A stretch of DNA of 48,504 nt from Pseudolactococcus hodotermopsidis (GTDB lineage Bacteria; Bacillota; Bacilli; Lactobacillales; Streptococcaceae). Below are positions 131 to 44,618 of the stretch, piece by piece (within the stretch, counting starts at the first letter, position 1; each line of letters begins with the position of its first letter). The notes beneath the pieces were generated by a model. That model worked only from the letters and a program-made list of their open reading frames with translations. It did no database searches and had not been told where the DNA came from. Both the position numbers and the translations under genes were made by a program. Where the stretch lies: the NCBI RefSeq assembly GCF_011170085.1, contig NZ_BLLI01000009.1:1-48504 (forward strand), in the 5' to 3' direction.

Positions 131-1378
131 TCAAAAATCAAATCCATACAAAGTTGCAAAATAATCAGCCGCATTTTCAGCTCGACGAATCATGCGTGGG
201 GTGCCATTTTCTTGCCATAAAATCTCAGCTGAACGCAATTTAGCATTGTATTGATAGCCCATGGAAAAGCCGTGTGCACCTGTATCGTGGATGATTAAGG
301 TGTCTCCGACTTCAATCGGTGGCAACTTTCTTTGCTTGGCAAATTTATCATTATTTTCACACAAAGAACCAACAACGTCGTAACTCTCAGTTTCTGGCAG
401 AATTTCTTTACCAGAGACGCTAATATGATGATAAGCATCGTAAATCGCAGGTCGCATCAAGTTGACAGCGCAGGCATCAACGCCGATATAGTCACGATAA
501 GTCTGCTTTTTATGCAAAACTTTGGTAATAAGATGACCATGTGGTGCTAGCATAAAACGCCCAAGTTCCGTAAAAATTTTAATATGCCCTAAATTATTTG
601 GTGTCAGTACTTTTTCATAGGCTTTTCTCACACCATCGCCAATTTTAAAGATGTCGTTTTCTGTCTGTTCTGGTTTGTAATTGACACCAATACCACCTGA
701 AAGATTGATAAAATCTAACGCAACATCAGTTTCAGCAACAACTTCTACTGCCAATTCAAATAATGCTTTGGCAAGTGTCGGATAATAGTCATTAGTTACT
801 GTATTTGAGGCTAAAAATGAATGAATGCCAAATTTTTTGACACCGAGCGCTTTCAAGTCTTTAAAGGCTTGAATCAGCTGCGATTTGGTCATGCCAAATT
901 TCGATTCTTCAGGATTGTTCATGATGTCTGTTCCTAGCGTAAAAATACCACCAGGATTATATCGGCATGAGATAATTTCAGGAATTGTTGTCACATTTTT
1001 CAAAAATTCAACATGTTCGTAGGCATCAAGATTGAGTGTTGCCCCAAGTTTTCGAGCGTATTGAAATTCTTTAGCGGGGGTGTCATTTGATGAAAACATG
1101 ATGTCCTCGCCTTTAAAGCCAAGTTTGTGAGACATGAGGAGTTCAATTTCTGAGGCACAATCGACACCGCAATTTTCTTCTTGTAAAATCTTCAAAATGG
1201 TGGGTGTCGGTGTTGCTTTGACAGCAAAATATTCCTTGAAACCAGGATTCCAACTGAAAGCTTGGTTGAGGGCGCGTGCTTTTTCACGAATGCCTTTTTC
1301 GTCGTAAAGATGAAAAGGTGTCGGAAATTCTGCTGTGATTTTTTCAAGTTGTTCTGCTGTGACAAAAGGGATTTTCAT
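131..1378 (-). CDS. lysA: diaminopimelate decarboxylase-like PLP enzyme
   Basis: A 415-residue fold-type III PLP decarboxylase, expected to convert meso-diaminopimelate to lysine, the last step of lysine synthesis, in the cytoplasm. The PLP lysine is K54 in YFAVKATPTP. The substrate/PLP barrel motifs GIHSF, LSGGIGVNY and ELGRFMLAPHG follow in the usual order, and the C-terminal domain carries SLCENNDKFA and GAHGFSMGYQYN. The last two differ from the classic LysA forms (ICESGD, GAYG.SM), so this is a divergent LysA branch; another basic D-amino-acid decarboxylase activity cannot be excluded. AGGAGA precedes the ATG. The 5' leader is occupied by tandem copies of the repeated element described separately, which may regulate it. 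Confidence 0.82.
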   Translation of the reverse strand: MKIPFVTAEQLEKITAEFPTPFHLYDEKGIREKARALNQAFSWNPGFKEYFAVKATPTPTILKILQEENCGVDCASEIELLMSHKLGFKGEDIMFSSNDTPAKEFQYARKLGATLNLDAYEHVEFLKNVTTIPEIISCRYNPGGIFTLGTDIMNNPEESKFGMTKSQLIQAFKDLKALGVKKFGIHSFLASNTVTNDYYPTLAKALFELAVEVVAETDVALDFINLSGGIGVNYKPEQTENDIFKIGDGVRKAYEKVLTPNNLGHIKIFTELGRFMLAPHGHLITKVLHKKQTYRDYIGVDACAVNLMRPAIYDAYHHISVSGKEILPETESYDVVGSLCENNDKFAKQRKLPPIEVGDTLIIHDTGAHGFSMGYQYNAKLRSAEILWQENGTPRMIRRAENAADYFATLYGFDF

Positions 1379-1395
1379 CTGATGATTCTCCTTAC

Positions 1396-1522
1396 TATTT
1401 GAACTTCAAGCTAACTTTCTAGAAAAATAGACGATTTGTCCGCACAAGCTGCGCTTGTTTACGGCGAATCACTAATTTTCTACGAAAGTTTGCGACTCCG
1501 TCGCATCGCTTTCAGTATCATG
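1396..1522 (-). repeat. LAC-leader element, copy 1 (lysA-proximal)
   Basis: First of three copies in the window of an intergenic element bounded by TATTTGAACTTCAAGC at the left and AGTATCATG at the right (plus strand). Read on the minus strand it lies just before the lysA Shine-Dalgarno. It folds as a long imperfect outer stem (GCAAACTTTCGTAGAAAA with CTTTCTAG-type arm), an apical stem CAAGC/GCTTG (1445-1449 and 1453-1457) closed by CCG/CGG, and a separate stem GCGAC/GTCGC. The name is a label used here only. It could be a leader RNA or a small mobile repeat. Confidence 0.75.
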
Positions 1523-1523
1523 T

Positions 1524-1667
1524 TATTTGAACTTCAAGCTAACTTTCTAGGAAAATAGATGTTTTGTCCGCACGAACGATGTTCGCTTACGGCTCATCCT
1601 AATTTTAGGCGAAAGCTTGCGTCTGTGATTACTTGATGCCTAGTGGTGCTTATTTTTCAGTATCATG
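1524..1667 (-). repeat. LAC-leader element, copy 2 (lysA-distal)
   Basis: Tandem second copy, one base after copy 1. The left half is nearly identical to copy 1; the apical stem has become CGAAC/GTTCG (1573-1577, 1581-1585), a compensated change relative to copy 1. The right part is diverged and slightly longer (144 bp), and the GCGAC/GTCGC stem is not kept. It ends in the same AGTATCATG boundary. Confidence 0.7.
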
Positions 1668-1700
1668 AATTTTACATAATTAGAAATATGTAAAATTCAT
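1665..1700. terminator. palindrome at the trmFO 3' end (TTTACATA family, copy a)
   Basis: Perfect 14-bp inverted repeat ATGAATTTTACATA ... TATGTAAAATTCAT with an 8-nt AT-rich centre. The right arm contains the trmFO stop codon. It is one of eight related palindromes in the window. It probably acts at the trmFO transcript end, although no long U-run follows. Confidence 0.6.
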
Positions 1701-3043
1701 GCGTTTAAATAATCTTGCAAGTCTTTTAAAGCACGTTCAGCAATTGCTGTATAACGTGCTTTCTTATCACGAATGCGTTCGCCGTCAAGTGCTTTGATAA
1801 TGCCAAAATTCACGTTCATCGGCTGAAAATTTTTACTACTTGCATGCGTGATATAGTAAGGCAGCGCACCGATTGCTGTGGTTTGAGGGAAGATAAGTGG
1901 TGCTTTTCCATGGTACAACCTAGCAGCGTTAATGCCCGCAACCAGACCAGAGGCAGCTGACTCGACATAGCCCTCAACACCAGTCATCTGACCGGCAAAA
2001 AAGATCTTATCCTGCTTTTTCGACTGAAAAGTTTGGCTCAAAAGTTGTGGCGAATCCATATAAGAATTGCGGTGCATCACACCATAGCGAACAAATTCCG
2101 CATTTTCAAGCCCTGGAATCATACGGAAAATGCGCTTTTGCTCGCCCCATTTGAGATGTGTCTGAAAACCGACGATATTATAGAGACTAGCCGCCGCATC
2201 GTCTTGACGGAGCTGAATCACGGCGTAAGGCACATTTGTCTCATAGGTCGTGCCATCTCGCTTGGTAACGGTATAGGTTTCATTTGGATTTTCAAGCCCG
2301 ACAGGTTTCATCGGACCAAAGAGCATGGTCTTGAAACCGCGCGCCGCAATGACTTCTATCGGCATACAGCCCTCGAAATATTTCTCCTTTTCAAAAGCCT
2401 TAATCTCGGCGACTTCTGCCTTGACAAGCGCTTGCTGAAAATTTTGAAACTCTTCCTTGGTCATGGGTGCATTGAGATAAGCCGCCTCGCCCTTGTCATA
2501 GCGCGATTTGAGATAGACCTTACTCATGTCAATGCTTGCAACATCAACTATCGGCGCTGCCGCATCGTAAAAGTAAAAGCCGTTACCGCCGTTAAGCGTA
2601 TGAATTTTTTGGGCTAATGTATCAGAAGTCAAGGGACCAGAGGCAATCACGGTAATCTCATCACTTGGAATTGCCGTGATTTCTTTGCGAATGACTTCTA
2701 TCAATGGCTGATTGCTTATTTTAGAAGTGACAAGCGCAGAAAAGCCGGCACGATCGACTGCCAAAGCACCACCAGCAGGCACACGAGTTTCATCAGCCGA
2801 ACGAATAATCACACTATCAAGTCGGCGCATTTCTTCTTTGAGTAAGCCAACAGCATTGGTCAATGAATCGCCACGTAGGGAATTTGAGCAGACTAATTCT
2901 GCGAAATCTGTTGTTTTATGTTGCGGTGTTGCCTTGACACCTCGCATTTCGTAGAGTTTAACAGGAATGCCACGCTTGGCGATTTGATAAGCTGCCTCTG
3001 ACCCCGCAATTCCTGCACCAATGACATTGATATGATTTGACAT
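1697..3043 (-). CDS. trmFO: folate-dependent tRNA m5U54 methyltransferase TrmFO
   Basis: A 448-residue FAD protein that methylates U54 in the T-loop of tRNA, using methylenetetrahydrofolate as carbon donor and reduced flavin as reductant. The N-terminal dinucleotide motif is [12 protein letters not shown] (residues 7-18). The two cysteines expected from the family are present: C52 in [10 protein letters not shown] and C226 in EGCMPIEV. The length matches the family. The start is supported by AAGGAAA upstream. A promoter with TTGATG at 3099-3104 and TATAAT at 3075-3080 (18-bp spacer, extended -10 TGC) lies just before it, so it is probably transcribed alone. The stop codon lies inside a palindrome. 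Confidence 0.95.
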
Positions 3044-43549: not shown

Positions 43550-43571
43550 AAATATCTCCTTGTCAAATTAG

Positions 43572-43618
43572 TTTACCAGTTAAGTATATCATCAAAAAAA
43601 ATATTGTCAACTGGTAAA
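43572..43618 (-). promoter_or_regulatory. adcA promoter with two AdcR/ZitR operators
   Basis: Minus-strand TTGACA (43605-43610) and TATACT (43583-43588), spacer 16. The boxes TTTACCAGTTAA (43572-43583) and TCAACTGGTAAA (43607-43618) cover the -10 side and the -35 and fit the AdcR consensus TTAACYRGTTAA with few mismatches. Binding would block the polymerase. Confidence 0.85.
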
Positions 43619-43623
43619 TTACC

Positions 43624-43743
43624 TTATGTGCGTTTTTTGTTACGATTGTGTTCCCGAATCACACGCAAAGCAGCCTTGCGAATCTTGATACTAGGACTTT
43701 TCAAACGACGGTAAGCCGTTGGTAAATCTTGTGGTTTAGCCAT
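43624..43743 (-). CDS. 39-residue basic protein at the zinc locus
   Basis: A small ORF with a strong AAGGAGG Shine-Dalgarno. It reads MAKPQDLPTAYRRLKSPSIK and continues with a Lys/Arg-rich helix (KAALRVIREHNRNKKRT). It resembles short basic streptococcal proteins annotated as putative metal-homeostasis proteins, from memory only. Its composition (14 of 39 residues Lys or Arg) also suits a ribosome-associated peptide. Its stop is 6 bases from the distal adcA operator, and its leader is copy 3 of the repeated element also found at lysA. Confidence 0.7.
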   Translation of the reverse strand: MAKPQDLPTAYRRLKSPSIKIRKAALRVIREHNRNKKRT

Positions 43744-43753
43744 TTTTCCTCCT

Positions 43754-43878
43754 TATTTGAATTTCAAGCTAACTTTCTAGGAAAATAGACAATTTGTCCG
43801 CACAAACTACGTTCACTTACGGCTCTTCCTAATTTTCACGAAAGTTTGCGACTTCATCGCACCGCTTTCAATATCATG
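43754..43878 (-). repeat. LAC-leader element, copy 3
   Basis: 125-bp copy with the same boundaries as the lysA copies, adjoining the Shine-Dalgarno of the 39-residue gene. The apical stem on the minus strand is TGAAC/GTTTG, keeping pairing through U.G and G.U. The second stem is GCGAT/GTCGC, again with a U.G in place of the C-G of copy 1. Confidence 0.72.
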
Positions 43879-43937
43879 ATTTATTTTTGTTTGGTAAATG
43901 TCAATTGGATAATTAACAATTCTTAGCAGAAAAGATA

Positions 43938-43958
43938 GTTTACATTAATTATGTAAAC
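43938..43958. repeat. palindrome (TTTACATA family, shorter variant g)
   Basis: GTTTACAT and ATGTAAAC arms with a 5-nt centre; outer GATA/TATC bases can extend pairing. It is downstream of the rpsN structured region. Confidence 0.5.
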
Positions 43959-43970
43959 ACGGTATCTTGT

Positions 43971-44117
43971 GGTGCTGAACGCTCATTAACACTTTTTATA
44001 ATCCAGTTTTTAATGAGCAACACCTAGGGAAAAAGACAAATTTTAGAACCTGCGCAAACGCAGAACCTTAAAATTTTCTATTTTCCTACGGTGCTGAACA
44101 CTCATTAACACTTTTTA
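43971..44117. repeat. structured intergenic element bounded by 28-bp direct repeats
   Basis: Direct repeats at 43971-43998 and 44090-44117 (27 of 28 identical, beginning GGTGCTGAAC) flank two hairpins. The first pairs GCTCATTAA (43981-43989) with TTAATGAGC (44010-44018), plus GGTG with CACC. The second is a long stem: TAGGGAAAA/TTTTCCTA, AAATTTTA/TAAAATTT and CTGCG/CGCAG around a CAAA loop. It occupies the space between rpsN and the 39-residue gene, and could be a MITE-like insert or a processed RNA. Confidence 0.6.
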
Positions 44118-44120
44118 GAC

Positions 44121-44390
44121 TTACCAACTTGCCTTTTTCACGCCTGGAATCTGTCCCAAATGTGCATGCTTGCGGAAATTAATCCGACTCATGCCAAATT
44201 TGCGCATGTAAGCATTGGGACGACCATCAATCATATCGCGATTTTTCAAGCGATTGGGATTGCTATCGCGAGGCAATTTACGTAAGCCCTCAATATCACC
44301 CTTCGCTTTCAATTCTTGGCGAATTTCAGCATACTGAACAATCAGTGCTTTTTGCCGATTGTACTTGGCAATTTTTGACTTTTTAGCCAT
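44121..44390 (-). CDS. rpsN: zinc-independent ribosomal protein S14 paralogue
   Basis: An 89-residue S14 of the long, C-minus type: [14 protein letters not shown] start, [25 protein letters not shown] core, and no CxxC zinc motifs. Such copies replace the zinc-binding S14 when zinc is scarce, freeing zinc. GGAGAAGTC precedes the ATG at 44390, preferred over an in-frame upstream ATG. It is driven by a double-operator promoter almost identical to that of adcA, with a long leader of about 160 bases. Confidence 0.94.
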
Positions 44391-44548
44391 GACTTCTCCT
44401 TTCAAAATATTGAGATAACTACTTTGAAGCTATTACAATCAAGCGCAAAATCAATACAGTTTTTTGATAATTTAACCAACTATTGAGTTATCAAATAATC
44501 TTGCATAGCATTTTCGTACTTGGTCAAGTATAGGCATTCGCAAATTAG

Positions 44549-44596
44549 TTTACCAGTTAAGTATATCATGACAAAAAAATAATGTCAACTGGTAAA
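44549..44596 (-). promoter_or_regulatory. rpsN promoter with two AdcR/ZitR operators
   Basis: Boxes TTTACCAGTTAA (44549-44560) and TCAACTGGTAAA (44585-44596) are identical to those of adcA. -35 TTGACA (44583-44588) and -10 TATACT (44560-44565), spacer 17. Predicted start near 44553, giving a leader of about 160 bases; it includes an unsupported 21-codon ORF from 44537 and a TTGATAA/TTATCAA stem. Confidence 0.85.
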
Positions 44597-44618
44597 CATT
44601 ATTTTTGTTAATCTAACA

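Follow-up and report, generated by a model that had tools for sequence, protein, structure and literature searches.

Pseudolactococcus genomes harbour a non-coding, modular repeat that is probably mobile and, with few exceptions, inserted in sense directly 5' of pre-existing, purine-rich Shine-Dalgarno (SD) sequences; by genome searches, many copies are carried by five species of this single genus. Its placement suggests a mobile element that is either aimed at the translation start site or kept there. Insertion directed by the SD would be the surprising part of this picture, and is as yet unproven.

The window, that is, the whole 48,504-nucleotide stretch of Pseudolactococcus hodotermopsidis DNA that was analysed, holds three copies of the repeat (Table 1). 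An earlier note on this DNA had described a tandem pair in the lysA leader and a third copy as a candidate leader RNA family. The copies are real, with their coordinates confirmed and 48 BLAST matches genome-wide exceeding chance, and the observation in the lysA leader was right, but the element is a dispersed repeat found far beyond lysA. Both copies of the lysA pair (83% identity over 75 nt) sit in the spacer between trmFO and lysA. Copy 1 and copy 3 both stop directly 5' of AAGGAG, in such a way that the proposed ending of the element right before the SD holds for these two, whereas only 3 nt separate the end of the upper lysA copy from copy 1. The SD of lysA was also found in orthologues without the element. 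At the trmFO end, an 18-bp inverted repeat (window 1664-1701) overlaps the start of copy 2, and a similar palindrome, TTTTACATA..TATGTAAAA, was found in the element-free relatives L141 and L155. Elsewhere in the window (43570-44600), adcA and rpsN are bordered by near-palindromes of the GTTTACCAGTTAAGTATATCAT type, which we take to resemble AdcR (zinc) operators.

Table 1. Features of the repeat copies and their neighbours, in window coordinates
Feature	Position	Strand	Remarks
Repeat copy 1	1397..1521	-	Long form, 125 nt, nearest to lysA
Copy 1, basal stem arms	about 1508-1520 and 1400-1412	-	
Copy 1, hairpin 1	1491-1505	-	
Copy 1, expandable arm P3	1413-1490	-	
Repeat copy 2	1525..1666	-	142 nt, left half diverged, in tandem with copy 1
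SD of lysA, AAGGAG	1388..1393	-	Adjoins copy 1 downstream
lysA-like diaminopimelate decarboxylase gene	131..1378	-	TIGR01048, 270 bits, under the model cut-off of 298
trmFO	1697..3043	-	Gene upstream of the lysA pair
Repeat copy 3	43755..43877	-	Long form, 123 nt
SD, AAGGAGG	43748..43754	-	Adjoins copy 3 downstream
Putative 39-codon ORF	43624..43743	-	No name; downstream of copy 3
Second dispersed hairpin family, one copy	43990..44118	-	Other ends

With the upper lysA copy as query, BLAST gave 48 matches in the 2.30-Mb draft genome of the window, about 16 of which correspond to the long form (about 125 nt). The remaining matches cover mostly the 3' end only, and their flanks reveal a short form of about 65 nt; the overall range of copy length is about 60-240 nt. 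A covariance model, as the earlier note had proposed, was built on 17 short copies with the SD left out, and gave many matches in the same genome (66 at E<=1, 46 at E<=0.01), with copies that covary. When 12 genomes of the genus were scanned at E<=0.01, matches were obtained in seven: the 46 of the window's genome, 14 in G004, 8 each in G002, G009 and G010, and 1 each in G001 and G005. The other five congeners, one of them 70% complete, gave no match at this threshold. An exact-pattern search gave four carriers, Lactococcus chungangensis, L. reticulitermitis, L. laudensis and L. raffinolactis, species that we take to be now placed in Pseudolactococcus. In the wider family, under stricter filters, model R1 matched 8 of 196 genomes, six within the genus and two outside it with one hit each.

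Diverged forms were also detected. In the atpH-atpA spacer (L053, L054, L069), the element is present in G010, and diverged, still foldable versions of it were seen in G001 and G005, which have no other match at E<=0.01. Two elements from two genomes of another genus (L167, L168) show a similar architecture with GGAC/GTCC in the inner stem; together with the diverged L051 (G004) and L062 (G009), they lie antisense just upstream of rpsL and parC-like genes. L051 and L062 likewise have GGAC/GTCC where the family has AAGC/GCTT. No match to the repeat was obtained in phages or plasmids with one copy as query, nor in viral contigs with one exact pattern. A known RNA family was ruled out as the identity of the element by Rfam searches, with 0 matches at gathering scores in the window and, at E<=1 in five loci, none inside the element; outside it, a tRNA and a weak SpF43 match were found. 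We found no description of this repeat family in the literature: the accessible parts of a genomic study of P. laudensis (PMC13335696) make no mention of it, and the word Lactococcus is absent from those of a survey of stem-loop families (PMC2267715).

One common predicted fold is possible for all length classes. The constant ends of the element, consisting of 5' ATGATACTGAAAGC plus a hairpin and 3' GCTTGAAGTTCAAAT, pair with each other and so form the basal stem (TGA.ACT/AGTTCA, then AAGC/GCTT) of a three-way junction, which also comprises hairpin 1 (TGCGAC/GTCGCA) and the arm P3 (AACTTTC/GAAAGTT). P3 is a 7-bp hairpin closing on a 3-nt loop in short copies, whereas in long copies it is extended by inserts of about 60 to 170 nt. 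The minimum-energy fold of several short copies taken singly differs from the common fold. The apical stems reported earlier for the three copies (CAAGC/GCTTG, CGAAC/GTTCG and TGAAC/GTTTG), as well as the change from GCGAC/GTCGC to GCGAT/GTCGC in a second stem, were found as quoted, with their compensatory differences.

Covariation was assessed on 62 copies, 60 of them distinct, after 12 out of 74 candidates were dropped as mis-parsed or too degenerate. Over 23 pairs in the 60 distinct copies, 94.5% of the cells were standard, versus 18-54% with slid partners. Cells changed on both sides numbered 53, against a mean of 15.8 and a maximum of 27 in 500 shuffles. Counted by pair, double changes occur in 8, a value within the range of the shuffles (mean 5.9, maximum 11). 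A weaker signal, 9 cells in 3 pairs, had come from the first 17 copies taken alone. This covariation is strong but not formal evidence, because the cells are not independent and related copies can exceed shuffles without any structure. The earlier claim that every non-canonical pair is a G.U in the minus-strand reading does not hold generally: the 60 distinct copies contain 54 G.U and 34 A.C cells, only a lean toward the sense strand.

Orthologous copies were compared leaving aside the rows x071 and pheT (mis-parsed or incomplete), and with two mmuM rows of G004/G002 that begin one base early. At a yhgE-like site, the copies carry GATGCT/AAGCTC in G000 and GATACT/AAGTTC in G004. P3 varies freely between orthologous copies, and conservation in the left half does not exceed that of the flank. 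Two structural candidates were dropped by eye: an anti-SD switch in the hairpin loop TTTCCTAG, a loop that is often TTTCGTAG, and a kink-turn in the basal internal loop, which varies.

The modular character extends to a second hairpin family, also dispersed (8 genomic matches, fold z of -6.35), whose ends are different (AAAAAGTGTTAATGAG.GTTCAGCACC and GGTG.TGCTCATTAAAAACTGGATTA). Over 60 nt, its inner module shares 82% identity with the P3 insert found in one copy of the first family (C13:29092), and its C8 and C49 copies contain a hairpin that is, by eye, near the reverse complement of the CAACGTGCCTTAG...CTTAGGCGTTG hairpin located in the largest first-family copies of relatives. Regarding arrays, triple ones were found at C2 and C25. 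Repeated insertion at one SD predicts arrays such as these and the lysA pair; where the array copies are near-identical, slippage could also be their source.

The position of the element with respect to genes was analysed in a census of 49 sites in the window's genome, assembled by hand from BLAST, flank and model matches. Two weak model hits were kept out of it (E 0.097 each): C30:18408, with the gene start far downstream, and C24:5482, with GAGGAGG about 8 nt on. A usable 3' end was available at 46 sites, the excluded ones being C74 (left end only), C68 (middle only) and C25:55 (contig edge). Start codons were called with our own script on the element's strand only, with preference for SD-bearing ORFs and a minimum of 38 codons, and an SD-like motif was defined as AGGA, GGAG, GAGG or AGGG starting 0-5 nt past the element; the search queries contained no SD. 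Such a motif was present at 44 of the 46 sites and a same-strand start codon 9-22 nt downstream at 42; both were found together at 41 sites, a combination that occurs at 0.8% of window positions, both strands included. Scatter in both orientations without covariation, the pattern that the earlier note had set against its reading, is absent in the window's genome, where all 42 copies with a gene behind lie in sense; outside it, L051 and L062 are antisense to rpsL.

At 16 of these 42 sites a same-strand reading frame stops 58-419 nt before the element. For uniform insertion in the 16 gaps, ending at most 10 nt from the SD at all of them has a product of about 10^-18.6, an illustrative figure, its 16 sites having been picked among those with a gene behind. 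In relatives, 25 rows were inspected, in which orthologous sites repeat: the element is followed by another copy in 3 of them and by an SD-like motif 0-2 nt on in 19, and in the other three the motif lies further on (9 nt at L069, 15 nt at L064 and 18 nt at L089). The rule of sense placement abutting the SD has exceptions, namely L089, L064, L069 and the antisense L051 and L062, the latter two being model hits outside the 25 rows.

Filled sites were compared with seemingly element-free orthologues from G003 and/or G001 at 15 loci. By eye, one or more of the element-free relatives show an SD at 14 of them, the exception being rlmN, where the reading frame of the relatives is longer. Since the SD is usually there already in orthologues without the element, we conclude that the repeat was placed immediately 5' of it, even where this SD falls within the 3' end of the gene upstream; this also rules out an SD brought in by the element. 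A -10-like box upstream of the insertion, common to the empty sites, was recognised by eye at gltX, guaA, hom, recA and ylbF. Where a promoter or a gene on the same strand immediately precedes a copy, that copy must be part of the 5' UTR or of intercistronic mRNA.

In 11 alignments, six sites were found filled in one congener and empty in others, with the insertion abutting the SD at L063, L071, L072 and L086 and not at L064 and L089. Between trpB and trpA, the empty sequence GCTGAAAAAGGAG corresponds to GCTGAAAATC[element]AAAGGAG or ATAGGAG when filled; by eye, with this element (L072, L087) the TrpB frame would run on inside the repeat as far as an internal TAG. At the junctions of the six sites only A-runs are shared, with no clear target duplication, and no terminal inverted repeats were seen in the element. 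The gene that has the repeat in G002 (L063) shows a different insertion in G009 (L218), where its SD and its start are separated by it. Many insertions are common to several congeners, and therefore the family may be largely dormant.

These data back the transcribed mobile repeat with a conserved fold that the earlier note had offered as one of its two readings: the copies are dispersed and covary, empty sites exist, and -10 boxes lie upstream at five loci. We propose that insertion would be directed by the AAGGAG motif, or by something coinciding with it, through an enzyme perhaps lost since, and that repeated insertion at one SD would give rise to head-to-tail arrays like the lysA pair. In the mRNA, the element would form an independent domain whose closing pairs lie about 3-8 nt 5' of the SD. 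The SD would usually stay usable next to it and insertions would therefore be tolerated, perhaps with a modest tuning of mRNA stability or translation.

Sequence alone cannot separate targeting from selection. It is possible, though we consider it unlikely, that insertion was untargeted and that only sense copies directly before an SD persisted, as mRNA stabilisers or translation insulators. Old copies common to congeners keep their pairing in agreement with this, as at the yhgE-like site of G000 and G004, and the B. cereus repeat bcr3 correlates with mRNA decay rate according to the portion of PMC3446304 available. The predicted folds also leave the SD freer than shuffled elements do: at the 37 of 42 sites that passed length and motif filters, its mean unpaired probability was 0.62 with the real elements and 0.52 with shuffled ones (29/37 sites, p 0.0016). 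The value is higher (0.77) without the element, and two sites have a mostly paired SD (0.13 and 0.14); we read these predictions as the fold making insertion tolerable at most sites. Selection alone would, however, leave copies between convergent genes as harmless, yet the census contains none. Neither does it sit well with insertions that cut into genes: an upstream reading frame ends inside the element at six census sites, hisI among them, and, by eye, so do those of pyrD and trpB. Of four 3'-end copies that have no called gene behind them, three nevertheless show the motif 1-5 nt on, and a murC leader copy adjoins AGGAAGG far from the murC start, which is not near the empty site in G010 (TTTTAGAAAGGAAGAG) either. 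The left half, no better conserved than its flank, argues in the same direction.

The fold might have acted in DNA during transposition and not in RNA, as in single-strand elements of the HUH/Y1 type (IS200/IS605 or REP-like). One-way, site-specific insertion without clear duplication and the subterminal hairpins are consistent with this, and the weak excess of G.U over A.C leaves the selected strand and molecule unsettled. Against it, Y1 transposase genes (PF01797) were found only in G002, G003 and G004 of the 12 genomes, the first and last of which are element-rich and G003 element-free, and none was found in the window's genome, a draft that could hide one; we regard this explanation as rather improbable. 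A reverse transcriptase (PF00078), as a retroelement or group II intron fragment would call for, was found in one of the 12 genomes, G002, and an IS110 transposase (PF02371), the enzyme of bridge-RNA systems, in another, the element-free G011. None of these three genes is supported as a partner, their occurrence not tracking the element in the 12 genomes, and the loci that were retrieved contained no recognisable autonomous version. A more speculative idea, to which we give equally little credence, is that the element targets the SD itself via RNA, with the folded transcript, perhaps ribosome-bound, guiding or templating insertion, which would yield sense copies and arrays at one SD.

The other reading of the earlier note, a cis-regulatory RNA, taken here as a genuine leader family (riboswitch-like or protein-bound) governing a regulon and spread by duplication, would account for a covarying fold ahead of the SD, for sense placement at 42 of 46 sites and for lysA, dapA and hom among the downstream genes, but is very improbable given that the genes behind the 42 copies look functionally mixed (rpsR, recA, gltX, guaA, pyrR and others, names assigned by eye), that the element goes unmatched in five of the 12 congeners at E<=0.01, that P3 differs freely and the left half is no better conserved than the flank, and that Rfam gave no match. 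A dedicated lysine or metal sensor is unlikely because of the same mixed host genes and the lack of an Rfam match.

Small bacterial repeats such as the pneumococcal BOX have been argued to persist where they are least harmful. The Pseudolactococcus repeat instead occupies a highly sensitive spot of the transcript in one orientation, and the genes behind its copies include some that look essential, raising the testable question of whether ribosome-binding sites can be the target of a mobile element. Should de novo events demonstrate insertion directed by the SD, this would be the important discovery, and RNA-guided targeting of the SD, if true, would amount to a translation-signal-seeking element. 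The family also provides dozens of naturally occurring insertions in 5' UTRs, each comparable with empty sites, as material to study SD-adjacent structure versus expression. It also advises caution, in that a multi-copy covarying leader RNA need not be a riboswitch.

We compared the repeat with known systems. Like bacterial MITEs, it is small and non-autonomous, with many copies and empty sites, but it differs from them in having no terminal inverted repeats, clear duplication or found parent element. The bcr1-bcr18 repeats of the Bacillus cereus group, described in the accessible part of PMC3446304 as intergenic, structured and incorporated into UTRs and operons, resemble it in all these respects; the likeness is one of description, and that part of the article mentions no rule of SD abutment. 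The closest parallels were drawn with BOX of S. pneumoniae and S. suis, presented in the sections of PMC3049150 at hand as small, dispersed, non-coding and modular, with ends that pair and internal modules that vary in number. The Pseudolactococcus repeat also has constant end modules that pair in a conserved fold around variable internal modules, and, as in S. suis, where two end types have internal modules in common, its two families have different ends and share internal modules. No homology to BOX was detected, model R1 giving only two single matches outside the genus in 196 genomes of the family. For BOX, terminal inverted repeats and target duplications are reported in the same sections, whereas no inverted ends and no clear duplication were seen in the repeat. 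Pneumococcal BOX is, again from those sections, over-represented between convergent genes and otherwise follows the general strand bias (60.8% leading); the repeat, in contrast, shows neither a bias to convergent gaps nor a loose orientation, its copies abutting the SD in sense. The repeat is BOX-like, modular and probably mobile, and its new feature is a placement that abuts the SD and is almost always in sense.
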